Origin: a bacterium
GTDB taxonomy: Bacteria > Sumerlaeota > Sumerlaeia > SLMS01 > JAHLLQ01
Direction of reading: 5' to 3'
NCBI GenBank assembly: GCA_020444065.1
Contig: JAHLLQ010000005.1
Location: 248,001 to 312,000 of the forward strand
DNA length: 64,000 nucleotides
Made by a program: the position numbers and the translations under genes. Shown here piece after piece: positions 4,506 to 44,220 of the stretch. Every line of letters starts with the position of its first letter. Positions within the stretch are counted from its first letter, which is position 1. A model generated the notes under the pieces. It saw only the letters and a program-made list of their open reading frames with translations, searched no databases and was not told where the DNA came from.

Positions 4506-4541
4506 CCGCCCGCAACCCTCGCCCGTTCTCGCCACAGTCCC

Positions 4542-8066: not shown

Positions 8067-8070
8067 GGGC

Positions 8071-8095
8071 AGGCGCCGATGGCGCCGCGAGTTTT
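8071..8095 (+). terminator. Weak hairpin after dnaE
   Basis: GGCGCC (8071-8076), a three-base loop GAT and GGCGCC (8080-8085) form a short stem, followed by GCGAG and TTTT. The position just after the dnaE stop suits a terminator, but the loop is tight and the T run short. Confidence 0.3.
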
Positions 8096-8204
8096 GTATT
8101 ACACCCGTCTTTTTGCTTGCGTGCTACCCCCAATATGTATATCGATGGTTGTAAAATAACTGCCATTCTCTGCTCTCCGCAGGCTCTTGAGGAGGAGGGG
8201 GACT

Positions 8205-10124: not shown

Positions 10125-10198
10125 CCGTTTTCCCTTGGCGCAATCCTGAGCTTCGTCTCTTCTGATTGCGAGGAAGAGGCCAGGAAGAGGAGCGCGTC

Positions 10199-11590: not shown

Positions 11591-11602
11591 AGGCGAGAAC
11601 AA

Positions 11603-22384: not shown

Positions 22385-22984
22385 TTGAAGAACAAGACCA
22401 TTCAAAAGCAGAAAGCAGGATTCACACTGATCGAACTTCTGATCGTGGTCGCGATTATCGCAATCCTGGCGGCTATTGCGGTTCCGAACTTCCTTGAGGC
22501 GCAGACGCGTTCCAAGGTCAGCCGCGTTCATGCCGACCAGCGCACGATTGTCACGGCCATCGAATCCTACTCCATCGACTGGAACCGCTATCCGCCGGCA
22601 TCGCGTCCGTTCGGAAACACGCGCGTTCGCAATCGGGTCATCGATCGCTACATCATGATGACCACTCCCGTCGCCTACATCACGACGATCCCGAAGGATG
22701 TCTTCTGGAATGGTCGTGAGCAAAACATCCCCCTGACCTGGGGAGCGGACGTGTTCGATTACTTCGAGCGCCAGTCGACTCCGCTCGTCACAAACCCTTG
22801 GGGACCGGATTCAGAGCTTCAGTCCGCCCTATGGTTCCTCAGTTCCTGGGGACCGGATGGCGAGATCGATAGCGACAACAATGCAACGGGCCCAAGTGGC
22901 GACGGTCCGTACTACATGCACATCCAGTACGATCCAACGAACGGTTCGATCAGTGATGGAGACATCTCGCGCTGGGGACCGTAA
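22385..22984 (+). CDS. Type II secretion/type IV pilin-like prepilin (pseudopilin)
   Basis: 199 residues from TTG 22385 (GGAAGGAAG upstream). A short basic leader KNKTIQKQKAG precedes FTLIELLIVVAIIAILAAIA, the prepilin peptidase site and hydrophobic helix of type IV pilins and GspG-like pseudopilins; cleavage is expected between G and F, leaving an N-terminal Phe and Glu5. The C-terminal domain ends YDPTNGSISDGDISRWGP, almost the same as in the second pseudopilin at 37563. Such proteins polymerise in the envelope and may carry or export surface proteins; here it directly precedes secreted proteins. Confidence 0.88.
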   Translation: MKNKTIQKQKAGFTLIELLIVVAIIAILAAIAVPNFLEAQTRSKVSRVHADQRTIVTAIESYSIDWNRYPPASRPFGNTRVRNRVIDRYIMMTTPVAYITTIPKDVFWNGREQNIPLTWGADVFDYFERQSTPLVTNPWGPDSELQSALWFLSSWGPDGEIDSDNNATGPSGDGPYYMHIQYDPTNGSISDGDISRWGP

Positions 22985-23075: not shown

Positions 23076-25703
23076 ATGACATTCAAGGAGAGAATTCCGA
23101 AGAAAACCAAGGCGATTTTGACAGCCTGCGCCATGATGGTCGCAACGGCACCACTGGCACAGGCGGACCAGATTGCTTTCACGTCGTTCGAGGACGCCGT
23201 GGGTGAGATGGGCTTTGTGACGAGTATCGTCGCGCCCGATCCCGTCCCGTCCTCGCCCGCCATCTGGTGGATTTATCCCAGCGCCGCGACACCGAATCCC
23301 GGCGACGCGGATATGGCGATCTTCGCCAGCGACAGCTATAATGACTACTTCACAGTCAACTATCCCGGCACGATTCCCCTGGTTTCCACATCGAACCCCG
23401 CAGTAACCGGACGCGATGGCGCTGCTGAACTGACCGCGGAAGACGTCGGTCAGGACGGCATAAGCGGTGGGACCGTCTCAATCACGTTCGATCCGGTCAA
23501 TGTGAATGGCTATTCGAATGTTCAGGTCAAGATGCTCCTGGCGTCGACCGACGCCTTGAACTTTGAGACTTCCGACTACATCCGCGTCGAGTGCCACGAG
23601 GTCCTTGGTCCCGTGACCCGCATTGGTGGATTCACCGCCGATGGCACCGCAGCCATGGCGCAAGATACCGACTTCGACGATGTCGGCGATGGCACGGCCC
23701 TGGGTCTGACCTACCAAGAGTTCACGTTCGATGTGCCGACCGGTGTTGTCAGCTTCCAGTTGGAACTCGACGTGTCCGTCGATAGCAGCGAAGAGGTCTT
23801 CATCGACAACATTCGTATCGAAGGCACTCCGGGCGGAACAGTTCGCGATCCGATCATGCTGGTTGAGGCCACCGACCTTGACTACGGTCGTCTTGCCGAG
23901 AGTGGAACCGTCGATCAGGTCGTCACGATCACGAATCACCCGTCAGCGACTGCAACGCTGGTCGTGGACGGCACAACGGCCCTCACAGGCGCCGATGCAG
24001 GCAACTTCTCGATCCAGACGGCGCTTCCTCTGAACATTGCACCGGGTGCATCGGAAGATGTGACGGTTCGTTTGACGGCACCGGCGAGCGGTGGAGATAT
24101 CTTTGACGACGCCCTGCTGACGCTGCACTCGAACGACAATGTCTCGGCGACGCACGACGTCAACTTGACTGGTCGCGTATTCTCGACGACCCCGGTCACC
24201 GTTGAGGTTTCCGGTGTTCAGAATCCGCCGACGACCTTCGGAACCATCGACGAAGCCGTCGACTATCTCGACGTCAACGCAGTCGGCGCGCCGTGGGTCA
24301 TCAATGTGACCACCGACGGCCCGGCCGTTGAGCCTTCCTGCATCGATCTGAAGACGGCTGCTTTCGGCGGCGTCACGATCAATGGCGATGCAGATGCCAA
24401 TGACACGCCTTACACGATCATCACCGATGCAGCCACCGCCGGCAGCCAGGCCAACTACGCGACGGGCACGACCTACGCCGCCCTGGTTCTCGAGGCTGAT
24501 GAGGCAACCTATAACATCAACAACCTGATCTTCGTGCCGGCGTACGTTGGTGCCGGCGTGACTCTCGATGACACGGTCGGCGGTTCCTCCGGCGTGCGTG
24601 TGATGACGATCGACACGTACGAAAACGGTCCTCTGACCGCTTTTGATCTGACGCTCGAAGACATCACGATCGCCGGCAGCAAGACCGGCAACGTGGCGGC
24701 GATGGATCCAGACACGAACGAGTGGGCGGACACGACGCACTACGGTCGCGGTATCAATACGTTCAGCAGTTCAACGGAAGATCCTTCTCCGACATTCGCA
24801 AACATGGTGATGCGCAATGTGAAGATCTTCAACACGGAACTCGAGAACTTCAGCCACGGCGGCGACTACATGAACCTCGACGTGCTTGAGGGCTGCGTCT
24901 TTGCATGGTCCGGCGAGTCCTGCTTCGTCGTTGGCGGCACGAACACGGGCACGCTGAACATTCAGGGAACGGCCACAGACCGCATCCTCGTTCGCGGTAG
25001 CGGCCAAGTCGACGTTGATGAAGAAGGCATGACGGTTGTTCCGGATGCCGACTACGACTGGACGTACATGGGCTGGGTCGACGTTCTTGAGAACGGCGGC
25101 GAGAACGACATGGGACCGGGCCAGGGCCCGACGCTCATGGAATACTGCCGCTTCGCCTACAACAGCCAGACCAACGACGATGCCGACGGCACCGACACCG
25201 GCATTCGCTACGGCTACGGCGACACCGCGGCCGTTTCGACCACGACGGATCGCACCATCAGCAACTGCACGTTCCACGATGGCCAGAACCCCGCGGGCAC
25301 GCAGTATGCCATCAACTTCTACGGCCTGATGGACGGCATCACGTTCAACGTGACGGATTGTATCCTCTCCGGCGCAGGCGACACTGGCATCAACATGCGC
25401 GCTGGTGGCGAGTCGACAACCAACCTGACGAACACCGCCCTCGTGACGGCTGGAACCGACGCTCTGGCCGCCGAATTCGACGGCACGTACGACGGCTCGG
25501 CAGGTAACTTCACGCTGAACCAGACCAACGTCATCAACGACGATCCGGCCTACGTCAGCACGACCTACACCTATGGTGCCAGCGACGACTTCCTTCGTCC
25601 GTCCGCTGCCGCCTACGATGCAGCAGCCTCCGGTGGCGGCCCGCTGTTCGGTGGCGCAGGCCCGGGCAATACGAGCGTGGTCGACTGGGCGCTGTATAAC
25701 TAA
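23076..25703 (+). CDS. Large secreted protein: jellyroll-like module, ASPM/SPD-2/Hydin-like domain and right-handed beta-helix
   Basis: 875 residues from ATG 23076 with AAGGAG upstream. A signal peptide (AILTACAMMVATAPLAQA) is followed by a beta-rich module, about residues 30-245 (IAFTSFEDAVGEMGFV, EDVGQDGISGGTVSITFDPV, VFIDNIRIEG). Next is an Ig-like unit typical of choice-of-anchor/ASPM-Hydin domains (TDLDYGRLAESGTVDQVVTI, LPLNIAPGASEDVTVRL). The rest, from EAVDYLDVNAVGAPWVINVT on, looks like a parallel beta-helix (NCTFHDGQNPAG, VTDCILSGAGDTGINMRAG), a fold of polysaccharide lyases and binding proteins. No catalytic residues were identified. It sits between a pseudopilin and the FG-GAP genes. 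Confidence 0.8.
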   Translation: MTFKERIPKKTKAILTACAMMVATAPLAQADQIAFTSFEDAVGEMGFVTSIVAPDPVPSSPAIWWIYPSAATPNPGDADMAIFASDSYNDYFTVNYPGTIPLVSTSNPAVTGRDGAAELTAEDVGQDGISGGTVSITFDPVNVNGYSNVQVKMLLASTDALNFETSDYIRVECHEVLGPVTRIGGFTADGTAAMAQDTDFDDVGDGTALGLTYQEFTFDVPTGVVSFQLELDVSVDSSEEVFIDNIRIEGTPGGTVRDPIMLVEATDLDYGRLAESGTVDQVVTITNHPSATATLVVDGTTALTGADAGNFSIQTALPLNIAPGASEDVTVRLTAPASGGDIFDDALLTLHSNDNVSATHDVNLTGRVFSTTPVTVEVSGVQNPPTTFGTIDEAVDYLDVNAVGAPWVINVTTDGPAVEPSCIDLKTAAFGGVTINGDADANDTPYTIITDAATAGSQANYATGTTYAALVLEADEATYNINNLIFVPAYVGAGVTLDDTVGGSSGVRVMTIDTYENGPLTAFDLTLEDITIAGSKTGNVAAMDPDTNEWADTTHYGRGINTFSSSTEDPSPTFANMVMRNVKIFNTELENFSHGGDYMNLDVLEGCVFAWSGESCFVVGGTNTGTLNIQGTATDRILVRGSGQVDVDEEGMTVVPDADYDWTYMGWVDVLENGGENDMGPGQGPTLMEYCRFAYNSQTNDDADGTDTGIRYGYGDTAAVSTTTDRTISNCTFHDGQNPAGTQYAINFYGLMDGITFNVTDCILSGAGDTGINMRAGGESTTNLTNTALVTAGTDALAAEFDGTYDGSAGNFTLNQTNVINDDPAYVSTTYTYGASDDFLRPSAAAYDAAASGGGPLFGGAGPGNTSVVDWALYN

Positions 25704-25803: not shown

Positions 25804-27834
25804 ATGCGCTGCTCATATCTTCCACTCAATCTCTTCTCTCTCCTTCTCTGCCTGATGGCGTCTTTCGCTTCCGCAGATTTGGTCAGCGGCGAACCGATCA
25901 TGCTCGGCGATGGAACCATGAACGGTCCGCTCTCTGCCGATGCGATCACCTCGGAGCCGTACGGATATGCGTACCTCTACGGAGGAGAACAACCCGACCT
26001 GTTTGTGGGTTCGACGAGTGGACTCTACTTGTATCAATGGCTGGAGACCGACGCCGAGACGAACGCTCCCGTCTTCGGAAACAGAGTGAGAGTATCCCAT
26101 CCGTGGGATGCAGACATCGATGCGCGCAGAGGTACTGTCCTGCAACTTGACGGTACTACCTACGGAGTATTTATCGAAGGAGACGAGCTGGTCATTTGCA
26201 CGTTCGATCTCCCGACACTCAAGTTTACAGAAACGGCCCGGCTCTCCTACGATGGCTTAGTTCCACGCAATCCAGTCTGCGTGACTATCGGACCGAATGC
26301 GGACGGCACGTTTCAGATTGTCTTTGGTATCAGCGATGGAACATCCAGCGCGGCGAGCGACTTCGATCGCTGGGACTGGCGCTATCGCATGTACGATGGC
26401 GCCGGCATCACGCGCGGTTATCTGTCCTACTACTATCTATACGGAATGCGTCTCTCGAAGCTCGACGAGACTGGCAAGTTCACGAATATTGCACGCATCA
26501 CGGACGGGACGGACGAAGTTCTCTTCTACCTGCCCGGCTCAACTTTCGTCAATCTGGGCGAAGGTTACGAGCGGGATCTGATCGTTGGGGCCCGCACAGG
26601 GGTCTTTCCCTATCGGCACAATACGGCAGGTGAGACCGGGGCCTCTTTCGAGGAAATGAAGTTCGTCGCGGATCTCGATGGTCTTGTCATGCGCCATCCG
26701 AACATTCGTCCCAGTACAATCGCCTATCCGGATCCTGAGACTGGTCTCAGCAATCTGATTTCCGGCGGCGAAGGAATGATCAGCTTCAATCGATTCACCG
26801 GCGAGTTCACCGAAAACGGTGCGCCGATCTACGGGAGAAACGTCCCCGTCCTCGAGGCGAATGCCCAACTCTATCATGGCTCTCTCGGAGTTGCCAATAC
26901 AGTCGATTGGAACGGCGACGATGTTGACGATCTGGTGATCGGCAACTCCACCGGACACATCTGGTATTTTGAGAATGCCGGGACGAACACAGTGCCCCTT
27001 TTTCAACCCGGCACGTATGTGGAAGCGAACGGCAAACCGATCCAACTGCAACCTGGCTACTGGAGAGACATCCAGGGGCCTGCGGAGTCGCGGTGGGGGT
27101 ACATTTGCCCCGAGGTCGCCGATTGGAATGAAGACGGGCTGCCCGACATCATTACCGGTGGATCAACTGCTCAGTACATCGTGTACATGAACGTCGGAAC
27201 CCCCACCGAACCGCAGTTCGGTGAAGGCAAAGTCCTTCGCCTGGACGGTAGCGAATTGCACGGAACCTGGCGCTCGAAGGCGGGTGTTGGAAAACTCGGC
27301 GATCGCATGGCGATCGTGGCGCTCGATGATCAGAACGAGTTTCATTTGTACTGGCGCCTGGATGACTACAATGTCGAGGACGGCGGAAAACTGCACCTGG
27401 ACGACAACCGAACGATTACAGCGACACCCGAATTCCGGCGCTCCGGCGCAATGGGGCGCGTGAAGATCAACCTGGACGATTGGGACGAAGATGGCGCGAC
27501 GGACTTGTTCGTTGGCACGTTTGGGCGCACTTCTATTCCTTCGCCGGATGCCGGTCTTCCATCTCACCTTCTCAAGAAATCCTCTGTCCTCCTTCTGCGA
27601 AATGCCGGCACCGACGAAGAACCCGTCTTCGAATTCCCGAAGTACTTCGCTTCTGATGGCGTGCAGATCTACTACGGCGGGCACTCGATCGGGCCGGACG
27701 TCTGTCACTTTGGCGCGTTCGGTCGGAAGGGCATCGTTGTCGCCAATGAATCGGGCCGCGTTGTCTTCTACCACGCGCTGAAGCTGAGTCTTGAAACGTG
27801 GGAACCAGGCGCAAGGGCTGCCTCCAATGACTAA
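25804..27834 (+). CDS. Secreted FG-GAP/VCBS beta-propeller protein (family member 1)
   Basis: 676 residues from ATG 25804. A signal peptide (LPLNLFSLLLCLMASFASA) is followed by a proposed propeller. Calcium-loop FG-GAP motifs are DWNGDDVDDLVIG, DWNEDGLPDIITGG and DWDEDGATDLFVG. The family signature DIQGPAESRWGYICPEVADW and the segment LYWRLDDYNVEDGGKL, then SIPSPDAGLP, recur in the other members. FG-GAP propellers are known from integrins and some polysaccharide lyases; no catalytic residues are recognised, so binding or lyase roles are both open. Its stop overlaps the start of the next gene by 8 bases, suggesting coupled translation. Confidence 0.83.
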   Translation: MRCSYLPLNLFSLLLCLMASFASADLVSGEPIMLGDGTMNGPLSADAITSEPYGYAYLYGGEQPDLFVGSTSGLYLYQWLETDAETNAPVFGNRVRVSHPWDADIDARRGTVLQLDGTTYGVFIEGDELVICTFDLPTLKFTETARLSYDGLVPRNPVCVTIGPNADGTFQIVFGISDGTSSAASDFDRWDWRYRMYDGAGITRGYLSYYYLYGMRLSKLDETGKFTNIARITDGTDEVLFYLPGSTFVNLGEGYERDLIVGARTGVFPYRHNTAGETGASFEEMKFVADLDGLVMRHPNIRPSTIAYPDPETGLSNLISGGEGMISFNRFTGEFTENGAPIYGRNVPVLEANAQLYHGSLGVANTVDWNGDDVDDLVIGNSTGHIWYFENAGTNTVPLFQPGTYVEANGKPIQLQPGYWRDIQGPAESRWGYICPEVADWNEDGLPDIITGGSTAQYIVYMNVGTPTEPQFGEGKVLRLDGSELHGTWRSKAGVGKLGDRMAIVALDDQNEFHLYWRLDDYNVEDGGKLHLDDNRTITATPEFRRSGAMGRVKINLDDWDEDGATDLFVGTFGRTSIPSPDAGLPSHLLKKSSVLLLRNAGTDEEPVFEFPKYFASDGVQIYYGGHSIGPDVCHFGAFGRKGIVVANESGRVVFYHALKLSLETWEPGARAASND

Positions 27835-29782
27835 GAAGTCGCTGCTCTCAGTCATGCTGACAGCGGGATTGGCCTCGTCGGCGATTGCCGCCGGGCCGAT
27901 TAGTGGGCAGCCCCTGATGCCGCCCGATGCGGACCCGACGTCCTTTGTCTGGAGCGATGGTGTTTCGACATCGCGATTCCCCGCGGGCGTGGCGGACGTG
28001 TTCGGAAACGGTCCCTACGATGCGTTTGTCTCCCTGGAATACATCTATCCGTTCGAGGGTTTTCACGCATCCGGCGCACCGATCTACGGCGATCCCGTGG
28101 CGACGACAAATGGCGCGGGAAATGGACGAATCGTTCTTGGTTCGGACGACAAGATCTACGGTCTATTCTGGTCCGTGAAGACAGTGACCATCCGGGAATT
28201 CGACAAGTCGACTCTGACATTCGGTACCGATGTTTCGCGGACATTGAGCCTTCCCGCAAACATCCATCGCGCGACCGGAATTCTGCGGCCGGACGGGAAG
28301 TTGCTCGTGGCAACGACCGTGGCAGACGGCGAAGGGTATATGCCTCCTTCGCCTCCCGATGCCGACGAACCTGGTTACTATCCCTACGATGGCAGCCGGC
28401 GCTGGCGCGGGGGAACGCCCGGATACAAGCTCTACACGCAGTTGTTCGCCTCACCTTCGCTTGGATACCCAGCACAGGATGGCCCTGCGTATGGCGGCGA
28501 GAAGGTTTTCTTGTATGAGAACACGTCGCTGAGTTTCCTGGAGCCGCCAACGCCATCGAACGAGGCGATTCTCGTCGGAACCGATAAGGGAGGAATCATC
28601 CGTCTGTTCGAGATCGCCGCGGACGGCAGCATCTCAGAGCAGCGGAGCATCCTTCCCGACAGTCATGGGATTGGAATGATCCACAATTGCGTCTACCCGA
28701 ATGCGACCGGCATGCCCGCGGCCGATGGACAGTGGAGCAACATGCTCGTCGGTGATACCGGGCTCCTGTGGTATTATCCGTACGCCGGTTCAACGACCTC
28801 TTCTGGGTTTCCGATGTACGAACCGGCGATTCCTGTTCGGCGCCGTAACGTTGAACATCGGCTTGGAGATCTGCCGGTGATCTCGGCGGGAGATATCGAC
28901 GGCGATGGATTGCAGGATATTCTGGGCGGCAACGACGCGGGGCGCGTCTTCTGGATGAAGAATGTAGGGACGGAGTCGGTTCCTGAATTCGCCACGCCGG
29001 AGTATCTGACTGCCGGCGGAGCGGAGTTCGTCATGCGTCCGGGACCGGTGAAGTCACTTCAGGGTCCGACAGAGAGCGCGTGGGGCTATACATGTCCTTC
29101 ACTGTACGACATGAACAAGGACGGGAAACTGGATATCATCCTTAGCAGCAGCCTCGGCCTCGTCCATGTCCTGTTGCAGACACAGTCAGATCCCGTCGCA
29201 TTTGGCAAACCGCAGGCAGTCTACTCCGACGGCCAGCCGATGGGGATTACGTGGCGCCAGCAGGTTGCCGGAACGAATTGGGGGATCGAAGGCAACGATC
29301 AGTTGGTGACCTTTGATGAACGCGATTTCCTGCGCGTTTTCCATCGACTCGATGCCACGAATGTCGTCCCCGGAGAAGTCCTGCGACTGGCGGATGGAGA
29401 ACCGATTACAGCGAACACGAAATTCTGTGGCCAGTACGGCCGCACGAAGACAAACGTCGTCGATTGGGATGGCGACGGAGTGTACGATCTGCTGTTCGGC
29501 GTTCGGCGTTGGCACTCGATTCCGAATCCCGTCACAGGCCTTCCGCAAGCCGCCGGTGGAACGCGTCAATCCGGCGCTCTCTTCATGAAGAACGTCGGCA
29601 GTAACGCATCGCCTGCTTTCGATTTCCCCGTTCGTCTGCAGTACGATGGAAGCTTGATCGAGTTGGGCGCCCACTCCGCTTCGGTGGCACCGCTCGACAT
29701 GGGAGTGGGGGGCAAAGCCCTTCTGATTGCTGAAGAAACTGGAAGCGTGATGTTCTATTCTCGGAGTGACCTGAGCCCTTGA
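27827..29782 (+). CDS. Secreted FG-GAP/VCBS beta-propeller protein (family member 2)
   Basis: 651 residues from ATG 27827, overlapping the previous stop. A signal peptide (KKSLLSVMLTAGLASSAIAA) leads to GPISGQPLMPPDA. FG-GAP loops DIDGDGLQDILGG, DMNKDGKLDIILS and DWDGDGVYDLLFG are present. The family blocks are SLQGPTESAWGYTCPSLYD, LRVFHRLDATNVVPGEVL and SIPNPVTGLPQAAGG. Compared with member 1 it lacks inserted domains and is probably a plain seven- or eight-bladed propeller. TGATG joins it to the next gene. Substrate unknown; location outside the cytoplasmic membrane. Confidence 0.83.
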   Translation: MTKKSLLSVMLTAGLASSAIAAGPISGQPLMPPDADPTSFVWSDGVSTSRFPAGVADVFGNGPYDAFVSLEYIYPFEGFHASGAPIYGDPVATTNGAGNGRIVLGSDDKIYGLFWSVKTVTIREFDKSTLTFGTDVSRTLSLPANIHRATGILRPDGKLLVATTVADGEGYMPPSPPDADEPGYYPYDGSRRWRGGTPGYKLYTQLFASPSLGYPAQDGPAYGGEKVFLYENTSLSFLEPPTPSNEAILVGTDKGGIIRLFEIAADGSISEQRSILPDSHGIGMIHNCVYPNATGMPAADGQWSNMLVGDTGLLWYYPYAGSTTSSGFPMYEPAIPVRRRNVEHRLGDLPVISAGDIDGDGLQDILGGNDAGRVFWMKNVGTESVPEFATPEYLTAGGAEFVMRPGPVKSLQGPTESAWGYTCPSLYDMNKDGKLDIILSSSLGLVHVLLQTQSDPVAFGKPQAVYSDGQPMGITWRQQVAGTNWGIEGNDQLVTFDERDFLRVFHRLDATNVVPGEVLRLADGEPITANTKFCGQYGRTKTNVVDWDGDGVYDLLFGVRRWHSIPNPVTGLPQAAGGTRQSGALFMKNVGSNASPAFDFPVRLQYDGSLIELGAHSASVAPLDMGVGGKALLIAEETGSVMFYSRSDLSP

Positions 29783-32700
29783 TGACTACGATTCGACTTC
29801 ATAGCAAACGCAAGATCACAATGATCGCCGGTGTCCTCGCGATCGCCGCCAGTGCCATCGCACAGGGCGATTCGAGCATTACCCAGACGGTGCCAGGGGC
29901 ACTGGAGAGCATCGAGCTCTCTCAAGGACCATTGGTCCCTGGGGAGCGGAATGAGTCGCAGGTTCTTGGCGTCGCGGATATCAAAGGCAATGGGCCCTAC
30001 GATTTGTTTTTGGCCTACGATGAGTTGTATCCGTATGCACAGCACAATTCCAGTGGCGCGCCCGAATATGGCCCGGCAATCAAACTTCACCCGCCCATGC
30101 TGAACGGGGCGATCGACGAGGAAAACCTCCTCCTGGCTGCGCCGCTGGCCGAGGCCGATGCGTACTTCGCACGAATCGCGATTGCCGCGGGCCACGTCAA
30201 GACTATGGAGCCCGATAATTACATTACATTCGAGGTCGAATTCAACGATGGCTCGAGCGTCGTTTTAGGATCATTCCGGGGCGATGCAGAACTGGCGACC
30301 GGTTGCCTGGCACTTGATACAAATGGGGACGGCGTTGGCGATGAACTTCCGCTCGATGTTGCCTTCCGCAGTTACACGTTCCCGATTCCCGAAGGCGAAT
30401 GGCCGGTCACGCTTCGTATCCTGGTCGACGTCGACGGGGGGGAAGAAGTTGGGATCGACGGAATCGAGATTCTCGAAGCGTGCGGTTCTGAAGTCATTTC
30501 GATAGCAAGGTCCGGATTCGAGAATGATGATTCGGAACTGACATTCACGACGAATCTCTCTGCGGGTTCCGTCTCGTCGAACACCGTTGATTTTCGGGGC
30601 GCGCTATTGGCCGGAGATGGATTCAACGATTTCGTCGCAGTCGCACCCGCTTACGTCGATACCCTCTTCTCTCAGGCCAACCTCGATCTCGGTTTCAACA
30701 GTTGGGAAGGCGATGGCTTCCTGATGGTCGAGGACACAGGCCAGGATGGACTTCCGGGGGAAGTCGCCCTGACGTTCGAGCCCGTCGCAGAACCGCCATC
30801 GTTGCAGACGGTTTCCGGCACGCGGATCGAGTACGCGCCGTCGTTGCTCGGGACCTCGCATGTTGCCTCGGGCGGTGGTTTGGTACTTGACCCCGCCGAT
30901 GGCGTCCAGGGCTTGAATGTAATCCCAGCGGCAGCAATGTCGATGAGTGCGTGTACGTGGTCGGCGTGGATCAATGTTGATTCGTACGAGACCGGCGCGT
31001 TCACCACCACTCATCCCCACACGATTCTGAGCGGTTACTCCAGCGGTTCGCTCGCCGCAGTCTTCCGCCTCTTTGAGGGCAAGGTTCAGGCCGGATGGTA
31101 CGATGGAGAGCGCTATCTGCTGTCGACAATCGAACAGCCGATCGCCACGGGAGAATGGGTTCACGTTGCGGTTACGATCGATGGCAGTTCTGCTCCGCGG
31201 CTCTTCGTCAATGGCCTGGAGCAGCCCGCAACGATCTCAAGTGGCGACCCAACCGCTCCGATTCCCGCGTTGGACGATTTGCGAATCGGTTATCATTCCG
31301 ATACGGGCAGTCTTCGCATCCTCGACGGATCAATCCGCGACTTCCGGATGTATGATCGCGATATGTCCGAGGCCGAACTGACCGCAATGGCCGCGGCTGG
31401 TGCGAATACCTACAACATCATTCCTGCGGAAGAACTGAACGCCGGAGATCTTGTGACGATGCCGGACGATCGCCTGATTGCGGCGTCCTTCGCCGGCAAC
31501 AGCCTGGTTCTCATGCAGTATGATCGCGAAGGTTCTCAATTCCAGGAAATCGCGCGGCAGGCTATCCCCGGTGTCGGAACACTCCACTCGCTGGCCGCCT
31601 CGGTCGATGGGAGCGACGGAATCGCATTGCACATGTCGACGCGCGGTCCGGCGGACTACCTGTCCTATGGCCACCCACTCTACAGCGAAGACTTCATGCC
31701 GTACGACGGCGCAGGCATCTGGCTCGGCGGCAAACCGTACGATCTGTTCTACCAGGCCGGAGTGACGTTCTTCGGAGACTCGACGATCTTCTCGGATGTG
31801 AGCGAAACGGGCCAGGATGTCCCACAAGTTCCATACGGGATCGCTGGGTTGGCGCCCTATGCCGATGGGCTTGTCGCCGGTTCTGAACTGGGAATGTTAT
31901 ACTCTTACACGACCGACGAAACAGGGGAGATCACGGGCCGACGCTACCTCTGGCACGAAGGCCAGGAACTCCTTCTTCATCCATACGGAGACGCGCGACC
32001 AATTGCGATCGCGAACGAATCTCAGGATGGCTACGATCTTCTCGTTCAATCTCCCGCAGGACTTCATCTCTATCGCCCGATCTCGCTGGAAGACATGATC
32101 TTCCAAGCGATTCAGCCGATTCAGGCGGAGGCTGTTTCTCTGTACTTCGGTCGCGACGCAGTCATCACCAGTGGCGATATCAATGGGGACACCATCCCCG
32201 ATCTGATCGCCGGCAATGCCTCGGGTGAACTGCTCTGGGCCCAGGGAATCACGAGCACCGAATACAGTGCTCCGACGCCTCTCTCGATCGACGGTGAAGC
32301 CTACAACTACGACGCCGGATATCGTGGCTCGCTACAGGGGCCGGCGCAGGGTCGCCTGGGTTACACGGCGCCGACGGTTTTCGACTGGGACGGCGATGGC
32401 CGCAACGACCTGCTACTTTCCAATATCAGCGGCGATTACTTCCTGGTCCGTCACCGCGATACCGATTCGGCAGAATTCGACGCGCCGGTGCCGATCTATC
32501 TCGATGGTCTGGAACTGCGCACGACGTGGCGTAACCAGCCGGCGATCGCTGCCCTGGGAACCGAAGCCAAGCCGGCTCTTGTGACGTTTGATGCAGACGA
32601 CAAACTTCATCTGTACTGGCACTACGACGCGCAGAACGTGATGGATGGCGGCCTTCTTCTGGCGGAGGGGGGAGAGGCCATCGATGCAAACGAACTCGAC

Positions 32701-33072
32701 TCGAGCGGTACTGGTCGAGTTCGTTTGCAGCTCTATGATTGGGATGGCGACGGCGCGCTCGATCTTCTTCTCGGGGCATGTCCTGAAACGTCCATTCCAA
32801 GCCCTGAGAGCGGATTGCCTCGTCATTCCGACTACAATCACGCGGCAATTCTTCTGATGAGAAATGTCGCCAGCAATGAAGCGCCGGCATTTGCCGATCC
32901 ATTGATTCTCGCCGATGAAAACGGGCCGATCGATCTGGGGGACGAGACCTGCTCTCCCGTCGCGGTGCCTGGCGCATCTGGGACGCAACTGCTGTTTGCA
33001 AACAGCCTCGGCGAAGTTCAGCGCGTAGCCGACGATAACCTCCTGAAACTGTCCGGATTCATTACATACTAA
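29782..33072 (+). CDS. Secreted FG-GAP/VCBS protein with inserted jellyroll and LamG-like domains (family member 3)
   Basis: 1096 residues. The first ~106 residues (signal peptide KITMIAGVLAIAASAIA; LYPYAQHNSSGAPEYG) and residues from about 550 (ELNAGDLVTMPDDRLIAASF) match the other propellers. Between them lies a ~445-residue insertion. Its first part (FARIAIAAGHVKTMEPDN, VGIDGIEILEA, EDTGQDGLPGEVALTFEPV) resembles the module of the protein at 23076. Its second part is a LamG/concanavalin-like jellyroll (SACTWSAWINVDSYETG, EWVHVAVTIDGSSAPRLFVN, SIRDFRMYDRDMSEAEL), often a carbohydrate-binding fold. FG-GAP loops DINGDTIPDLIAG, DWDGDGRNDLLLS and DWDGDGALDLLLG follow, with SLQGPAQGRLGYTAP. Confidence 0.83.
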   Translation: MTTIRLHSKRKITMIAGVLAIAASAIAQGDSSITQTVPGALESIELSQGPLVPGERNESQVLGVADIKGNGPYDLFLAYDELYPYAQHNSSGAPEYGPAIKLHPPMLNGAIDEENLLLAAPLAEADAYFARIAIAAGHVKTMEPDNYITFEVEFNDGSSVVLGSFRGDAELATGCLALDTNGDGVGDELPLDVAFRSYTFPIPEGEWPVTLRILVDVDGGEEVGIDGIEILEACGSEVISIARSGFENDDSELTFTTNLSAGSVSSNTVDFRGALLAGDGFNDFVAVAPAYVDTLFSQANLDLGFNSWEGDGFLMVEDTGQDGLPGEVALTFEPVAEPPSLQTVSGTRIEYAPSLLGTSHVASGGGLVLDPADGVQGLNVIPAAAMSMSACTWSAWINVDSYETGAFTTTHPHTILSGYSSGSLAAVFRLFEGKVQAGWYDGERYLLSTIEQPIATGEWVHVAVTIDGSSAPRLFVNGLEQPATISSGDPTAPIPALDDLRIGYHSDTGSLRILDGSIRDFRMYDRDMSEAELTAMAAAGANTYNIIPAEELNAGDLVTMPDDRLIAASFAGNSLVLMQYDREGSQFQEIARQAIPGVGTLHSLAASVDGSDGIALHMSTRGPADYLSYGHPLYSEDFMPYDGAGIWLGGKPYDLFYQAGVTFFGDSTIFSDVSETGQDVPQVPYGIAGLAPYADGLVAGSELGMLYSYTTDETGEITGRRYLWHEGQELLLHPYGDARPIAIANESQDGYDLLVQSPAGLHLYRPISLEDMIFQAIQPIQAEAVSLYFGRDAVITSGDINGDTIPDLIAGNASGELLWAQGITSTEYSAPTPLSIDGEAYNYDAGYRGSLQGPAQGRLGYTAPTVFDWDGDGRNDLLLSNISGDYFLVRHRDTDSAEFDAPVPIYLDGLELRTTWRNQPAIAALGTEAKPALVTFDADDKLHLYWHYDAQNVMDGGLLLAEGGEAIDANELDSSGTGRVRLQLYDWDGDGALDLLLGACPETSIPSPESGLPRHSDYNHAAILLMRNVASNEAPAFADPLILADENGPIDLGDETCSPVAVPGASGTQLLFANSLGEVQRVADDNLLKLSGFITY

Positions 33073-33090
33073 GGGAGTCAGGGAATTCAT

Positions 33091-34713
33091 ATGAACTGCA
33101 CGTCATTCAAGACATTTGCGACGATAGGAGTTGCGGCCGCTGCCATGGTTGCACCGGCAGCCGCTCAGACGATCCGCGAGCCGCAACCTTTCCGTGTGTA
33201 TCAACGCAGTAGCGAAGACACAGCTCGCATTCCTTTCAGGATCGAGTCGGTACCTGCGACGATCAAGAAGATCGAGGTGTCGCTCGTGGACTCGGAAGGG
33301 AAGTCATTCTTTGCGCGCCACCTGGCGAATCCCTCCGGAGATGTCTCCGGTGCGATCGACGAAGTGCCTGTGGGCGGGCCGTATCGGTTTGCCGTAGAGT
33401 ATTCAACCGCGGATGGGTTGCTTCTGACGCAGACTTCGACAGATCTCCTCGTTGGCGATCTGTGGATTCTCGCCGGTCAGTCGAACATGGAAGGCACGGC
33501 GCACCTGCAGGACCTGGAGCCGCCATCTGACATGGTCCACGTTTTCCGGCTTTATGATGAATGGACAATCGCCAAGGATCCGCTCTCTGATCCTAACCTC
33601 GCAGTCGATCCCGTTCATTGGCGGAGCACAATTTCTCAGATCCCCGATTCAGAGAACCTGGATTTTATCGCAAGATCGAATGGGTTCAGCAGCACCGATC
33701 TTGTGGTGCGCAAGCGCCCGGTCGCGGAACCTGTTCGCAAGGCGCTTTCGAATGCCGGCGTCGAGTGGCATGACTTCCTGGAAGCCATGCGTCCCGATAA
33801 AGGTGCGGCGCTGGAATCGGAATTCCGGCGGAATAGAGGTGCGGGCCTCGGCGTCGCATTCGGAAAGCACCTGCAGGAAGAAACCGGTGTCCCGATCGGG
33901 CTCATCATGAACGCGAACGGTGGCACGAATATGTCGCAATGGGACCCGAACCTGGCCAGCTACGGCGGCGAATCGCTCTATGGGTCTCTTCTTCGTCGCG
34001 TCGATCTGCTCGGCGGCGAGGTGACTGGAATCGTCTGGTACCAGGGCGAATCCGACGCCGAATCGCAGGAGCAGATCGACAACTACAGCGAGCGTACGAC
34101 GAACTTCGTTCAGCAGCTTCGTCGCGATTTCAACGCCCGTGATCTCCCGTTTGTTCTCGTGCAATTGGGCCGAGTTTACGACAAGCGCCGGAACTCCTCG
34201 TATTGGATGAGCATTCAGACGCAGCAACTGGAACTCGAGCAATCGCTTGGCAATGCGTGGCTGGCTGCAGCGACCGGCGAGAGCATGAGCGACCACATTC
34301 ACCTCGACGGCAAGGGCCAGCGCGAACTTGGGCGCAAGCTCGCCGATATTGTGCTTGGCGGTGTCTACGGATACGATATCGAGCGCGGCCCTCGTTTGAA
34401 GTCTGCGGTTCGGACAGATGCAAAGACGATTCGCCTCGAATTCGACTCCGTGAACGGATCGCTTGTTTCCACTGCTCCTTTCCCCGGCTTTGTTGTGCGG
34501 GATTCGCATCGAAGCTACCAGACGATTGAAGATATCTCCATCGATCCGAACGATGGAAACGCCGTGATTCTCACCATGCTGTATCCCATCGGAGACGGCG
34601 CCACGGTGACATTCGGGGAAGGAATTAACCCCGTTATCGGACTGGCAGATGAACTCGATCTGACCGTCCCCGTGTTTGGACCTATCACTATCGAAACGGA
34701 GCAGACTCGCTAA
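33091..34713 (+). CDS. Secreted SASA-family esterase (sialate O-acetylesterase-like)
   Basis: 540 residues, 18 bases after the previous gene. A signal peptide (TFATIGVAAAAMVAPAAAQ) precedes a beta-sandwich domain. The SGNH-type hydrolase core has LWILAGQSNMEG (nucleophile Ser near residue 131), the oxyanion region NANGGTNMSQWD, GIVWYQGESDAES and the His/Asp pair in SDHIHLDGKG near residue 400. Members of this family remove acetyl groups from sialic acids or from acetylated plant and algal glycans. In this setting it would prepare a decorated glycan outside the cell. The last ~100 residues form a C-terminal beta domain. TAATG couples it to the next gene. Confidence 0.87.
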   Translation: MNCTSFKTFATIGVAAAAMVAPAAAQTIREPQPFRVYQRSSEDTARIPFRIESVPATIKKIEVSLVDSEGKSFFARHLANPSGDVSGAIDEVPVGGPYRFAVEYSTADGLLLTQTSTDLLVGDLWILAGQSNMEGTAHLQDLEPPSDMVHVFRLYDEWTIAKDPLSDPNLAVDPVHWRSTISQIPDSENLDFIARSNGFSSTDLVVRKRPVAEPVRKALSNAGVEWHDFLEAMRPDKGAALESEFRRNRGAGLGVAFGKHLQEETGVPIGLIMNANGGTNMSQWDPNLASYGGESLYGSLLRRVDLLGGEVTGIVWYQGESDAESQEQIDNYSERTTNFVQQLRRDFNARDLPFVLVQLGRVYDKRRNSSYWMSIQTQQLELEQSLGNAWLAAATGESMSDHIHLDGKGQRELGRKLADIVLGGVYGYDIERGPRLKSAVRTDAKTIRLEFDSVNGSLVSTAPFPGFVVRDSHRSYQTIEDISIDPNDGNAVILTMLYPIGDGATVTFGEGINPVIGLADELDLTVPVFGPITIETEQTR

Positions 34714-37520
34714 TGAAGTTACTCAAGCGAACACTGACCCTGGCAGCCATGACGGCGCTGCCGTTATGTGTCTCGGCGGAACTCCTCGTGTCGGAGTCTT
34801 TCGATTACCCGGCTGGCACCATTACGCAGACTCCGAATTGGGCGACATTCGGCACACCCGGTTCCAAGACGGTCATGATCGAGGATAGTTCCCTCGAGTA
34901 CAAGGGTCTGCCGAAGTCAACCGGCGGCCGCGCCATCGTTGATGACGAGGGTGACGAACGCGTCTCCATGGCGATCATCCCGGGAGTCACGAGTGGCACG
35001 GTGTATTACTCGCTGCTTGTGAACCTGACCAAGATTCCAACCGAGAAGACCTATGCAATGCACCTGAATGGGAGTCGCTATTCAGGGCGCATCCTGTTTC
35101 TGGATGCCGGGGATGGGAAGTACAAGATCGGCATTTCCAACACAACGGCCGGACAGTACGCCGACCGCACATTCTCACCTGGCGAGACAGTGCTGGTTGT
35201 TGTTCGCTATCGGTTCGATGCGACACCGACCCAGGATGAAGTCGCTTTGTTCCTCGACCCCGATCCTTCCGCCGATGAACCGGCACAACCAGACGTTGTT
35301 CGGCTGGATCGCTCCGAATCGCTCATTGACGAGTTCGTCTTCCGCCAGTGGGACGGCGTCGGCTCCTACGAGGCCGATGATTTGCGCATCGGGACAACGT
35401 GGGATGCGGCGATGGGGCACGAGGAAGTCTCGCAACGCGTTCTCGAAGCTCGGGCCGCGATGATGAAGTGGGCGCAGCCCCGGGAAGCCAATCGCCTGAA
35501 GTACGAAAACCCCGGCCTCGTCGATCAACTTGGCGTTGGCCTGTGGGGGCTTCCCCTGCCGATGGATTGGGACAATGACGGCGACTATGATATGATCATG
35601 TCGTCCCGCGCCGCACCGTACAGCGGCACGTTCCTCTTCGAGAACTACGGCACAGACGTTTTTGGCCCTCCTGTTGAACTGGGGCCCGCAAAGAAGGACT
35701 TGACGATTACGCATACTTCGGAAGGCCCCATTATTGTAACCCCCGGCGTCATGTATCGCGACTTCTCGAATGGACTCTTCGGAAAGCCTGAGTCGATTCC
35801 CTTCAAGCAGGATTTCTATGCGGGACGTGTAAACCAGTGGGAGTTCGCCGATTGGGAAGGCGACGGCGACCTCGACTTGATGATCGGTATCAGTGACTGG
35901 CGCGATTACGGCTGGGACGATGCCTTCAACGAGAAGGGCGAATGGATAGCCGGGCCGCTCCACGGACACGTCTACATCTCGATCAACGAAGGTAGCGATG
36001 AACATCCATCCTACGTGGAACCCTTCGAAGTTCAGGCCGGCGATTCCCTGCTGGATACGTATGGTGCGCCTTCGCCGAACTACGCCGATTGGGATGGCGA
36101 CGGCGACATGGACCTTCTCTGCGGAGAATTCCTCGATCGGATCACTTTCTTCGAGAACGTTGGTACGCGCGAAGCACCGAAGTTTGCCGAAGGTCGCTTC
36201 CTGGAAGCCGATGGCAAGACGATCCACATGGACCTGGAGATGCTGCAGGTCGACGTCCTCGACTGGGACAAGGATGGTGATCCGGATATCATCGTTGGCG
36301 AGGAAGACGGCCGCGTCTCGCTGATTGAGAATGCAGGAAAGGGCCGCGCAAAAGCGCCGGTTTACTTCAAGCAGCGCGCCTACGAGATCAAGTTCGGTGC
36401 TCTCGATACGCCCTGGCCCGTCGATTGGGACGGCGATGGGGACGATGACATCATTCTCGGCAATACGGCTGGTTTCATTGCTTTGCTGGAGAATCTCGAT
36501 GGTGGAAGCCCGCCGCAGTTCAGCACTCCGCAATTCCTGGAAGCAGACGGTGAAGTGATTCGCATCATGGCGGGAGAGAATCTCTCCATCCAGGGACCGG
36601 CCGAGGCCAAATGGGGTTACACGGCCGTGACCGTAGCCGACTGGAACAGCGACGGACTTCCGGACATCGTTACGAATTCGATCATCGGCAAGATCGTGTG
36701 GTACAAGAACGTTGGCACGCGGACAGAACCGAAACTCACTGGACCGCTGAGCATCGAGCTCGATGTCGACGGCGAGACACCCTATCCCGCATGGAACTGG
36801 TGGAAGCCGGAAGGCAAGGAACTCGTCACGCAATGGCGCACGACGCCGATGACGATCGATATGAACGAAGACGGAAAGATGGATCTCGTTCTGCTTGATA
36901 CCGAAGGCTTTCTGGCATTCTACGAACGCACTGGAGATCCCACGAAGACCAGCGTCGTCTCGGCACCGCAGCGCATCTTCCGTATGGCTTCGGCCGATTC
37001 GACGTTCAACAACAATGGCGAAGTCGAGTCTTACGACTTCAACGAAGACGGCGTGAACGACCTCTTGCAGCGCTCCCTCGATGGTGGAGTCGTCTATGTA
37101 TCCCGTACCCCGATTGATCGCAAGACGGTCACCGTGACCGAACAGGGGATGGTGGAGAAGGGAACTGAACTTCTCACGCCAACCATGAAGGAGCAAACTC
37201 TGCTCCGCATGAACATGGGATGGGCCGGCCGAGCCGGACGCCGCAAGTACGTGATGGCTGACTGGGACGCAGACGGCGACCTGGACCTACTCGTGAATTC
37301 ACGCGGAATCAACTTCCTCGAGAATGTTGGCAAGAAAGGCGAGTTCGTCTTCAAGGATCACGGCCGTATCACGCCGCATCGTCTGGCGGGCCATACAACC
37401 TATCCCACGGTCGTCGATTGGAACCGCGACGGTGTGCTCGATCTGCTGATCGGCGCGGAAGACGGATGCCTTTATTACTACCAGAGGGATAAGTCCTCGG
37501 AACTTCTCCAAGAATACTAA
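34713..37520 (+). CDS. Secreted FG-GAP/VCBS protein with ten loop repeats (family member 4)
   Basis: 935 residues. A signal peptide (RTLTLAAMTALPLCVSA) is followed by a jellyroll-like N-terminal domain (LLVSESFDYPAGTI to about residue 235; FVFRQWDGVGSYEADDLRI is typical of secreted LamG-like units). Then at least ten calcium-loop motifs are seen, such as DWDNDGDYDM, DWEGDGDLDL, DWDGDGDMDL, DWDKDGDPDI, DWDGDGDDDI, DFNEDGVNDL and DWNRDGVLDL. The family signature appears as SIQGPAEAKWGYTAVTVADW. This is the most repeat-rich member and probably makes a full propeller plus extra blades. Its start overlaps the esterase stop by one base. Role unknown, presumed extracellular. Confidence 0.83.
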   Translation: MKLLKRTLTLAAMTALPLCVSAELLVSESFDYPAGTITQTPNWATFGTPGSKTVMIEDSSLEYKGLPKSTGGRAIVDDEGDERVSMAIIPGVTSGTVYYSLLVNLTKIPTEKTYAMHLNGSRYSGRILFLDAGDGKYKIGISNTTAGQYADRTFSPGETVLVVVRYRFDATPTQDEVALFLDPDPSADEPAQPDVVRLDRSESLIDEFVFRQWDGVGSYEADDLRIGTTWDAAMGHEEVSQRVLEARAAMMKWAQPREANRLKYENPGLVDQLGVGLWGLPLPMDWDNDGDYDMIMSSRAAPYSGTFLFENYGTDVFGPPVELGPAKKDLTITHTSEGPIIVTPGVMYRDFSNGLFGKPESIPFKQDFYAGRVNQWEFADWEGDGDLDLMIGISDWRDYGWDDAFNEKGEWIAGPLHGHVYISINEGSDEHPSYVEPFEVQAGDSLLDTYGAPSPNYADWDGDGDMDLLCGEFLDRITFFENVGTREAPKFAEGRFLEADGKTIHMDLEMLQVDVLDWDKDGDPDIIVGEEDGRVSLIENAGKGRAKAPVYFKQRAYEIKFGALDTPWPVDWDGDGDDDIILGNTAGFIALLENLDGGSPPQFSTPQFLEADGEVIRIMAGENLSIQGPAEAKWGYTAVTVADWNSDGLPDIVTNSIIGKIVWYKNVGTRTEPKLTGPLSIELDVDGETPYPAWNWWKPEGKELVTQWRTTPMTIDMNEDGKMDLVLLDTEGFLAFYERTGDPTKTSVVSAPQRIFRMASADSTFNNNGEVESYDFNEDGVNDLLQRSLDGGVVYVSRTPIDRKTVTVTEQGMVEKGTELLTPTMKEQTLLRMNMGWAGRAGRRKYVMADWDADGDLDLLVNSRGINFLENVGKKGEFVFKDHGRITPHRLAGHTTYPTVVDWNRDGVLDLLIGAEDGCLYYYQRDKSSELLQEY

Positions 37521-37562
37521 TCCACAATCAATGAAGAGATCGCACCTACGAAAGGATAGATC

Positions 37563-38144
37563 ATGAAATCGCAAAGAGGCTTCACACTCATTGAACTGCT
37601 GATCGTCGTCGCAATCATTGCGATCCTCGCAGCTATTGCCGTGCCGAACTTCCTCGAGGCGCAAACGCGTTCGAAAGTCTCGCGCGTCAAGGCCGACATG
37701 CGGACCGTTGCGACGGCCATGGAATCCTATCGCGTGGATTTCAATAAGTACCCACCAGTCTACATTAGGTTCGGTTCCACCGAGATCAAGATCACGCCGG
37801 TCGTGCAGCGGTATGTGCGCTTAACGACGCCAATCGCCTACATCACGACAGTTCCGCTCGACCCGTTCTTCGGTGGCCGTGAATCCGATCTGCCTGTTTG
37901 GGGCCTGCCGGTGTTTGACTACTGGAGCTACGACGAACCGTATCTCTGGGGGCCGCGCCGCGGGACGTCCTGGTGGGTTTCGTCCTACGGACCGGACAAG
38001 GAGAAGAACGGCAACTCCGCGACGGCTCCCGACGGTAGCTCGTTCTCCTGGAGCACCCCGTACGATCCCACAAACGGCAGCATCAGTGCCGGTGAAATCA
38101 CTCGGTTGTCCGATGGCTTCCAGACCGAAGACTACGCACCCTGA
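37563..38144 (+). CDS. Type II secretion/type IV pilin-like prepilin (pseudopilin), second copy
   Basis: 193 residues from ATG 37563 (GAAAGG upstream). A short leader MKSQRG is followed by FTLIELLIVVAIIAILAAIA and then FLEAQTRSKVSRVKADMRT, giving the same cleavage site and Glu5 as the copy at 22385. The C-terminal domain differs in the middle but shares TTPIAYITTVPLDPF and YDPTNGSISAGEITR. Two such proteins bracket the secreted genes, and this one stands directly before fucI. It may form a local pseudopilus fibre or be a surface-anchored unit; no gspD/E/F-like assembly genes are nearby. Confidence 0.87.
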   Translation: MKSQRGFTLIELLIVVAIIAILAAIAVPNFLEAQTRSKVSRVKADMRTVATAMESYRVDFNKYPPVYIRFGSTEIKITPVVQRYVRLTTPIAYITTVPLDPFFGGRESDLPVWGLPVFDYWSYDEPYLWGPRRGTSWWVSSYGPDKEKNGNSATAPDGSSFSWSTPYDPTNGSISAGEITRLSDGFQTEDYAP

Positions 38145-38169
38145 CAATCTCTAATACGGAGTTGATCAA

Positions 38170-41621: not shown

Positions 41622-41676
41622 CGAGGGTAAGTCGCTCGTCGAGAACGAATCGACATTTTCAATTTGGGAGCCACGT

Positions 41677-44220
41677 ATGCTGACGCGTCGCTGCTTTGCA
41701 TTCCTTCTATTCGTCATCCTCTCGATCCCCAGCGGAATGATCGCCGCATATGAAATCGAAGCGGCCGCCGGAGTCACCCCTCATTCCGAATGGAAGAGTG
41801 GCGAGCCAATTCCCGTGGGCACAGTGAACCGCGAAGGCCCGCTCGCGCCCGGCGTCACCTTCTGGACGCTCGGATTCATCGCCGATGCGGCCGGTGGGCT
41901 CCCCTCGATGGTGATGGGCACCGACAAGTTCAGTCATCCCTCCGGCGTGTATTACTACAAGGCCATCGGACGCGATCCGAAGACGAACTCCCCTATCTTC
42001 GCCGATCCCCAGCGCACGAATGCTCCTTTCAATGGCAGCCATTGTGCCGCGGTCGTGCAGGACAGTAGCGGAAAAGCTTATGGCGCATGGTACAGTCCTG
42101 GTAAAATCCAGATCGCGCCATTCGATCCTTCAACCTGCAAGTTCGCGAAGGCAACGATGTCGCTCGATGTGTCTGAGTTGCCTCGGGGCCCCTCCTGCTT
42201 CTATCTGCTGCCTCTCGACGATGGTACTATGGAGTCGGGGCAGTGGATGGTCATCTTGGGTGTTGGCGACGGAATCCCACATCGGCCGGAAGGTCCAAGT
42301 TGGCGCGAGCCCGAATATCGCCCGTACGATGGATCCGGAATCTACCGCGGCCACCTGAGTGAATTCACGCTCTATGGGAAGACGTTCGACCTCTCGAATG
42401 GCAAATCGGAGTATCTCGGAAAGGTCTCGCCGGGCGACAGGGCAAGTCTGATTAGCTGCGATTCTGTTGCAGCGCTGCAGCTTCGGAAGGAACACGGCGG
42501 CGACCTGCTTGTTGGGACGCGTCTGGGGGCGCTCAATTACTTCCCCGCAGAGTGGAAGGATGGCATTCCGACTTATCCTAAGCGTTTGCGGGCGGTTGAT
42601 CACGATGGCAACGCGATTCGCTTCCCATCGGTCATGGCGTACATCAAGTCATACCCGAACGAATCGACTGGGCTGGACGATCTTGTGATCGGAACCCAGG
42701 GGTTCACGATGTACTACCGATTCAGTGGGCAGTTCACGGATCGTGGCGAACCGATCTTCGACGAGCCCTCTGTCGTAAACGTGAAGAACGCCACGCTACA
42801 ATTGGGTGCGCTGACCGTTCCGAACATCGTAGACTGGGACCAGGATGGGACGCTGGACATTGTGGCCGGCAATTCCGATGGCTTCGTGATGTTCTCGCGG
42901 AATGCTGGCACAAATGAAGTCCCACGTATGCTGCCCGGCGAACGTATCGTTGGCGGTGGCCAGGACATTCATGTGCAACCTGGCTACTACGACATCCAGG
43001 GCCCGGGCGAGGCGCGCTGGGGGTACTCGTGCCCCACGACCGTCGATTGGGATGGCGATGGAGATATAGATATCGTCATGAGCGATCCAACCGCTGCGCA
43101 CACAGTGTTCCTGAACCAGGCAGGTCCTGGGAAGCCGCCCGTCCTCGCTGCCGGACGTCATCTCTACTGGGAACATCTCGATTTGCATGGGACGTGGCGT
43201 GTTCGACCGGCCGCGGCGCAGATGGGCGATCGCATGGCGTATGTCCTTCTGGATAAGGACAACGAACTGCACCTGTATTGGCGGTTGGATGACTACAATG
43301 TTGAGAGCGCTGGGAAAATCTTGCAACCGAACGGGAAACCGATTTCCGGCGCGTACCTGTTTGCCGGCGGCCGAGGTCGCCTGAAGCTGCTGCTGTACGA
43401 CTGGGACAAGGACGGCCGGGTGGATATCGTCACAGGAACTTCGCGACATGCTTCGGTGGGGGATCCGAATAACGGTCTTCCCCAGGCACTCGGCCGCCCC
43501 GGCTCCTCTGTCTTGTGGCTGCGGAACGTCGGCACGAATGAGAAGCCGGTTCTCGAGTGGCCGCGCGTCCTTGCTTTCAAGGGCAAGCCGATCTTCTTCG
43601 GCCAGCACTCCTGCGCGCCTTCGATTGGCGACCTTGGGCCGGGGAAAGACGAGAACATGGTTGTTGGAACTGAAGACGGCAGGGTGTACTTCTTCCAGCG
43701 CGAAGACATCGGCTTCCTCAGTATCCCCGAGATTGCGAAAGCTAATCTTGGCGTCGTAATCGATCGTCTGTGTGGGAATCCGGATCGTTTGCCCGACGAC
43801 AAAGGAGAATGGCTTTCCCTGAGAAACATCTCCGATGAAGACATCGACATCAACGGGTGGTGGTTGTTTCAGCGCGGCACTCGTCAGATTCTCCGTTCCA
43901 GCCAGGCAGACGTCAATTTAGCGCCCGGTGAATCTCTCGTGCTTGGGCGCTCGCGAGACATTCCCATCGAGGGAGACGCGTCCGTCGACATCCTGCTCGA
44001 CAACGACTTCATCTTCGACAATTCGAAGGGAATTATCGGCCTCTACAGCTTCCAGGGCCTGCATGATGCCGTGCGCTGGGGAGAAGGATCGGAGGAACTG
44101 CTGAAGTCCAAAGTGACGACGCACGAACTCATCCACGGCGTGGTGGACGACCTTTGTCGCTATATCGGTCCTGCCTTCCAGTCGGGCGAAGTTCGCGATA
44201 CGATGCCTGCCGTCAAGTAG
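41677..44220 (+). CDS. Secreted FG-GAP/VCBS protein with C-terminal lamin-tail domain (family member 5)
   Basis: 847 residues from ATG 41677 (GGGAG upstream); the frame is open from 41605 but the signal peptide RRCFAFLLFVILSIPSGMIA sets the start. FG-GAP loops are DWDQDGTLDIVAG, DWDGDGDIDIVMS and DWDKDGRVDIVTG. Family blocks are DIQGPGEARWGYSCPTTVDW, LHLYWRLDDYNVESAGKIL and DPNNGLPQALG. After residue ~690 comes a lamin-tail-like beta domain (GEWLSLRNISDEDIDINGWW, LAPGESLVLGRSRDIPIEGD), common as an anchor or adhesion unit in secreted bacterial proteins. It is the last gene of the train, 55 bases after the kinase. Confidence 0.83.
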   Translation: MLTRRCFAFLLFVILSIPSGMIAAYEIEAAAGVTPHSEWKSGEPIPVGTVNREGPLAPGVTFWTLGFIADAAGGLPSMVMGTDKFSHPSGVYYYKAIGRDPKTNSPIFADPQRTNAPFNGSHCAAVVQDSSGKAYGAWYSPGKIQIAPFDPSTCKFAKATMSLDVSELPRGPSCFYLLPLDDGTMESGQWMVILGVGDGIPHRPEGPSWREPEYRPYDGSGIYRGHLSEFTLYGKTFDLSNGKSEYLGKVSPGDRASLISCDSVAALQLRKEHGGDLLVGTRLGALNYFPAEWKDGIPTYPKRLRAVDHDGNAIRFPSVMAYIKSYPNESTGLDDLVIGTQGFTMYYRFSGQFTDRGEPIFDEPSVVNVKNATLQLGALTVPNIVDWDQDGTLDIVAGNSDGFVMFSRNAGTNEVPRMLPGERIVGGGQDIHVQPGYYDIQGPGEARWGYSCPTTVDWDGDGDIDIVMSDPTAAHTVFLNQAGPGKPPVLAAGRHLYWEHLDLHGTWRVRPAAAQMGDRMAYVLLDKDNELHLYWRLDDYNVESAGKILQPNGKPISGAYLFAGGRGRLKLLLYDWDKDGRVDIVTGTSRHASVGDPNNGLPQALGRPGSSVLWLRNVGTNEKPVLEWPRVLAFKGKPIFFGQHSCAPSIGDLGPGKDENMVVGTEDGRVYFFQREDIGFLSIPEIAKANLGVVIDRLCGNPDRLPDDKGEWLSLRNISDEDIDINGWWLFQRGTRQILRSSQADVNLAPGESLVLGRSRDIPIEGDASVDILLDNDFIFDNSKGIIGLYSFQGLHDAVRWGEGSEELLKSKVTTHELIHGVVDDLCRYIGPAFQSGEVRDTMPAVK

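Follow-up and report, generated by a model that had tools for sequence, protein, structure and literature searches.

Integrins that carry an alpha-I domain have a ligand-binding domain of about 200 residues set between the consecutive blades 2 and 3 of a beta-propeller (PMC3791550). Beta-propellers of the FG-GAP type are found in bacteria too (PMC3192720). Natural circular permutants, in which the halves of a domain are swapped, can arise by duplication and deletion (PMC2395249). Here we describe a bacterial propeller protein, which we call member 3, encoded in a window of 64,000 nucleotides (contig JAHLLQ010000005.1, positions 248,001 to 312,000) of a 5.2 Mb Sumerlaeota genome assembled in 14 contigs. 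Member 3 is probably a secreted, glycan-associated beta-propeller that holds two beta-sandwich domains, a circular permutant and a LamG domain, in the connection that joins blade-like repeats 1 and 2.

Four propeller paralogs are encoded in the window:
25804..27834, + strand: member 1, paralog without the insert
27827..29782, + strand: member 2, paralog without the insert
29782..33072, + strand: member 3, secreted propeller protein with an internal insert
41677..44220, + strand: fourth propeller paralog (also read from 41605), without the insert

The likelier start of member 3 is the ATG at 29782, which overlaps the stop of member 2; residues are numbered here from the alternative TTG at 29779, taken as residue 1. 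The reading frame is uninterrupted over 1097 codons. Member 3 lies inside a run of co-directional genes, from about 25804 to 44220, that are separated by short gaps or overlap; the run contains three propellers, a SASA acetylesterase, another FG-GAP protein, a pseudopilin-like gene, an L-fucose isomerase, an FGGY kinase and the fourth member of the propeller family. At its C-terminus the latter has a lamin-tail-like domain, with an LTD score of 28.9 bits that falls short of the cut-off of 34.3. A sodium:solute symporter and a DHDPS-family aldolase are also encoded in the window. The small pseudopilin-like genes number two, one before the propeller genes (22385-22984) and one within the run (37563-38144), and their N-termini are near-identical: GFTLIELLIVVAIIAILAAIAVPNFLEAQTRSKVSRV.

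The insert and the repeat at its junctions are placed as follows:
30100..31446, + strand: insert, residues ~108-556, boundaries each +/- ~5 residues, missing from 32 site-spanning homologs
30100..30106, + strand: CTGAACG, left junction copy of a 7-bp direct repeat, in frame
31435..31441, + strand: CTGAACG, right copy of the junction repeat

Similarity between member 3 and its propeller paralogs stops at residue ~110 and resumes at ~553. The site was examined in an alignment of 35 rows of the propeller family, drawn from Sumerlaeota, Hydrogenedentota, Omnitrophota, Opitutia, Acidobacteria, Planctomycetes and Bacteroidota. From anchor to anchor (after residue 95 and before residue 557) member 3 has 461 aa, whereas the 32 homologs spanning the site have 15-29 aa there, a net gain of ~435-445 aa. 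An earlier, sequence-only reading had claimed an insert of about 445 residues at 30100-31440 and had named an alignment of paralogs as a check; size and position both proved accurate, and the gap is present in the insert-free relatives. The left flank passes through a complete ordinary linker (..EYGPAIKLHPPMLNG, with the counterpart ..YFGAPYSITSPNANG in the Opitutia locus L040) and the right flank opens with a similar LNAG, so the junctions were placed at residues ~108-110 and ~552-556 (window ~30100-31446). The CTGAACG repeat is at best suggestive and could be a trace of the insertion event or chance, the chance expectation being, by our own estimate, ~0.4 in the 57 x 60 bases compared. Between the junctions a C-D-A-B module of ~220 residues comes first and a Laminin_G_3 domain second.

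The propeller profile found 61 loci, and among those of them that were aligned across the site not one carries the insert. A search of the 38 other genomes of the class yielded no ortholog of member 3, whether insert-bearing or insert-free, so we infer the insert-free state from the paralogs and more distant homologs. A protein scan of the genome contigs with the whole of member 3 found no relative, and the propeller family was not found in viral contigs. Large additions in L040, L079, L094, L095 and L097 were considered as inserts at the same site and rejected on inspection: that of L040 is a separate N-terminal sialidase-like region, and the others are, by eye, N-terminal extensions or other propeller variants.

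Modelling of full-length member 3 with AlphaFold2 gave two propeller segments:
29959..30108, + strand: first propeller repeat, residues ~61-110 (AlphaFold2)
31447..33069, + strand: remaining propeller, residues 557-1097 (AlphaFold2)

The pLDDT is mostly 87-93 for residues 61-108 (74 in the last block) and mostly 84-97 for residues 551-1090 (mostly 86-97 over 557-1097), with confidence high from 551 to 1093. It is mostly below 50 in the insert because no relatives align there; when module and LamG fragments were aligned together with propellers, the fragments were misplaced, and such mixed alignments were left out of the modelling. The insert is flanked by the strands 104-107, which end the first meander, and 557-560, which start the second, with blades assigned by eye. 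The model thus supports a predicted insert position after the first blade-like repeat and before the second, outside the propeller core, and the high-confidence core without the insert fits a loop-out from the propeller, which the earlier reading had named as a check. By eye there are ~9-10 blade-like meanders, and one or two closed propellers are both compatible with the model. DxDxDG-like loops occur at D800-D808, D869-D877 and D987-D995. A fold search of the propeller returned multi-propeller proteins, CRTAC1, sialidases and fucose- and GlcNAc-binding propeller lectins, all at low TM-score; CRTAC1 is the sole PDB sequence match. Member 3 falls under the curated Pfam cut-offs (FG-GAP_3 25.8 vs 26.9 bits; FG-GAP 21.0 vs 22.1 bits), and its paralog member 2 passes both (45.6 and 29.5).

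The second part of the insert is assigned to a known family:
30922..31380, + strand: Laminin_G_3 domain (concanavalin-A-like), residues 382-534, domain probably ~345-546

It passes the curated score of Laminin_G_3 in Pfam with ease (PF13385; 62.7 bits vs a cut-off of 27.6, E 5.8e-17), as the LamG-like jellyroll of the sequence-only reading had foretold. Carbohydrate binding by Laminin_G_3 domains is common, although not universal.

The first part is best described in terms of four blocks, A to D, seen in native order in the protein encoded at 23076 (the 23076 protein):
23166..23831, + strand: native-order A-B-C-D module of the 23076 protein
30136..30474, + strand: C-D half in member 3, residues ~120-232; matches residues ~140-248 of the 23076 protein
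30493..30792, + strand: A-B half in member 3, residues ~239-338; matches residues ~31-141 of the 23076 protein

The native A-B-C-D order was found in four proteins, the 23076 protein and three others of the class. The module is N-terminal in the former and C-terminal in the latter, which are endonuclease I proteins (L033, L034 and L104, from genomes G011, G008 and G003; the Endonuclease_1 match was tested for G003 and judged by eye for G011 and G008). Because of these three further native-order modules, A-B-C-D is taken as the usual order. After its module, the 23076 protein has a choice-of-anchor D domain (23838-24095, residues 255-340; 41.1 bits, cut-off 45). The module matched nothing in Pfam, PHROGs or PDB sequences, the PDB having been searched with the module profile, and was not found in plasmids and phages; it is an undescribed domain, though found on endonuclease I proteins. 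It was not found in 40 genomes bearing the propeller family either, a search that had no positive control and so shows little.

In member 3 the two halves are joined by the 6-residue linker EACGSE. Residues 132-231 match residues 152-248 of the 23076 protein (33% identity, E 6e-10), and residues 231-336 match residues 14-141 (BLAST E 8e-6), the first columns of the latter match falling in the signal peptide; this match can also be placed at ~237-336 against ~31-141. In shuffle tests like halves matched with z = 20 and z = 10 and unlike halves did not (z = 0.2 and -1.0), so the contrast between C-D-A-B and A-B-C-D is real and beyond chance. A single profile of the four native modules splits the match to member 3 into two pieces of 29.9 and 3.4 bits, whereas the same profile doubled in tandem aligns without a break to residues 144-336, D-A joint included, and scores 42.2 bits. 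Native modules, each scored against a leave-one-out profile, lose ~1 bit on doubling (n=4). The isolated C-D-A-B segment scores 47.2 bits; with its A-B half shuffled 60 times, the best score was 37.8. The ..AAPLAE that opens the permuted chain and the ..FEPVAE that closes it both align to the native ..FDPVNV turn, so the new ends appear to be cut in the B-C turn. These comparisons support a true circular permutation as the likely nature of the block order. The earlier description of the order itself was thus borne out; of its wording, a permutation or recombination product, the first part is supported by the doubled profile. A recent recombination with the 23076 gene is not supported, the identity being only ~33%.

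Modelled alone, the permuted module reached a pLDDT of 56 and a pTM of 0.52, with the A-B half mostly below 50, and from so poor a model we can only infer that C-D-A-B folds as one domain. A fold search of this model gave weak generic beta-sandwich matches at E >= 0.009. An alternative is that two native modules once stood in tandem and lost their outer halves, so that the inner C-D and A-B are adjacent without being one permuted domain. Duplication and deletion are the standard route to permutation (PMC2395249), the new ends overlap slightly, PLAE opening the chain and PVAE closing it, as a duplication may leave them, and the low pLDDT of the single-domain model would also fit such a remnant. 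Against it, the module is there in just one complement, each half once, with a short linker between them and nothing left of the outer halves; moreover, positions conserved in the native halves are kept in both of these, whereas halves without a partner should decay. We consider a tandem remnant unlikely and a permuted single domain the better account.

On the preferred reading, two accessory beta-sandwich domains would have entered a beta-propeller where its first repeat connects to its second. The first would be a circularly permuted form of a module that Pfam does not list and that is elsewhere at chain ends as A-B-C-D, its old ends (D to A) bridged by the short linker and its new ends lying in the former B-C turn. 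The permuted order may have arisen by duplication and then loss of the outer halves, and the C-D-A-B stretch would fold as one domain. The module and LamG pair might bind glycan and hold the propeller on its substrate, much as integrins bind ligands through the alpha-I domain. Glycan binding by the LamG domain is reasonable because of the operon, with its fucose and acetylesterase genes, and the neighbourhoods of the family; a glycan-binding accessory role of the insert is plausible from this genomic context and is its most likely reading. It has less to recommend it, and we regard it as rather improbable, that permutation enabled insertion, the ends at the B-C turn fitting an interblade loop, the swap and the insertion being one adaptive event and the native order not being tolerated there.

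The origin of the insert can be approached through its closest relatives. The only other place in the genome where the module was found is the 23076 protein, whose gene is ~6 kb away, so recombination with this neighbour could be proposed. However, identity between the module halves and the 23076 copy is only ~33%, with no match at the DNA level, and the C-D half is about as similar to the module of G008, a genome of another family (31.8 bits), as to the 23076 neighbour (33.8 bits). The 23076 protein is also without the LamG part. GC3 is 62-68% across insert and flanks, the base composition equals that of the host gene, and a second DNA copy was not found in the genome. For these reasons the event is probably not recent; recent recombination with the 23076 gene is not supported, and we hold formation of the insert from this gene to be very unlikely. 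A scrambled or chimeric contig, which the 14-contig assembly and the unique architecture might suggest, is highly improbable, since a single 1097-codon frame with even GC and GC3 runs through the region, the junctions coincide with domain boundaries, the repeats found there are too short to mislead an assembler and the sequence is divergent from all other copies. Least credible of all is that the region is elaborated propeller core with no true insert: in its favour a weak FG-GAP match lies inside the region (E 0.17), but this reading is already refuted by the 15-29 residues that join the flanks in homologs and by the high-confidence AlphaFold2 core, which excludes the region, and the LamG match also speaks against it.

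The propeller family itself is widespread, and Pfam recognises it only through weak FG-GAP matches. Near-invariant QGPxExRWGY, TWR and GRxK motifs are seen in the window paralogs and loci L040-L075, and these conserved residues suggest a possible binding or catalytic site. In Bacteroidota the family neighbours include SASA, SusD, TonB receptor, esterase (alpha/beta), GH32 and heparinase genes, and BNR genes are likewise among its neighbours in other phyla. In Opitutia (L040:3-3368) an N-terminal BNR/sialidase-like region is fused to an insert-free propeller. The family is sometimes found in tandem copies inside polysaccharide-utilisation loci. In L031 (G010, 1-11830), from another family of the same taxonomic order, the gene order propeller, L-fucose isomerase, kinase, propeller is conserved, and the run continues, by eye, with a phytanoyl-CoA-dioxygenase-like gene and then a TIM-barrel-like gene.

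Member 3 offers a compact natural case in which domain insertion coincides with circular permutation. It is a clean example of protein evolution, not a new system, and its effect on general understanding is modest. With a native-order copy nearby and insert-free relatives by the dozen, one could test in which order the events took place and how well propellers tolerate large insertions, and the protein also points to a widespread propeller family, without name, in polysaccharide-utilisation loci.

By analogy, the closest known design would be the integrin alpha-I domain, set between propeller blades. In both, the insert lies between consecutive blades and occurs in some family members and is missing from others. 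The inserted fold in integrins is von Willebrand A, whereas member 3 carries a Pfam-unlisted module and a LamG domain, and Pfam gave no match to a von Willebrand A domain with a MIDAS in the insert. The site differs as well, lying between blades 2 and 3 in integrins and after the first blade-like repeat in member 3, which, unlike integrins, is bacterial, forms no heterodimer and has a permuted module. Laminin_G_3 is usually a chain-end or serial module, whereas the copy in member 3 is inside a propeller. The modules of the endonuclease I proteins (L033, L034 and L104) and of the 23076 protein belong to the same family by halves, native there and permuted in member 3. With natural circular permutants member 3 shares swapped halves, a single complement and a gain in score on a doubled reference; that of member 3 differs in lying inside another domain and not as a free-standing protein or a terminal module.
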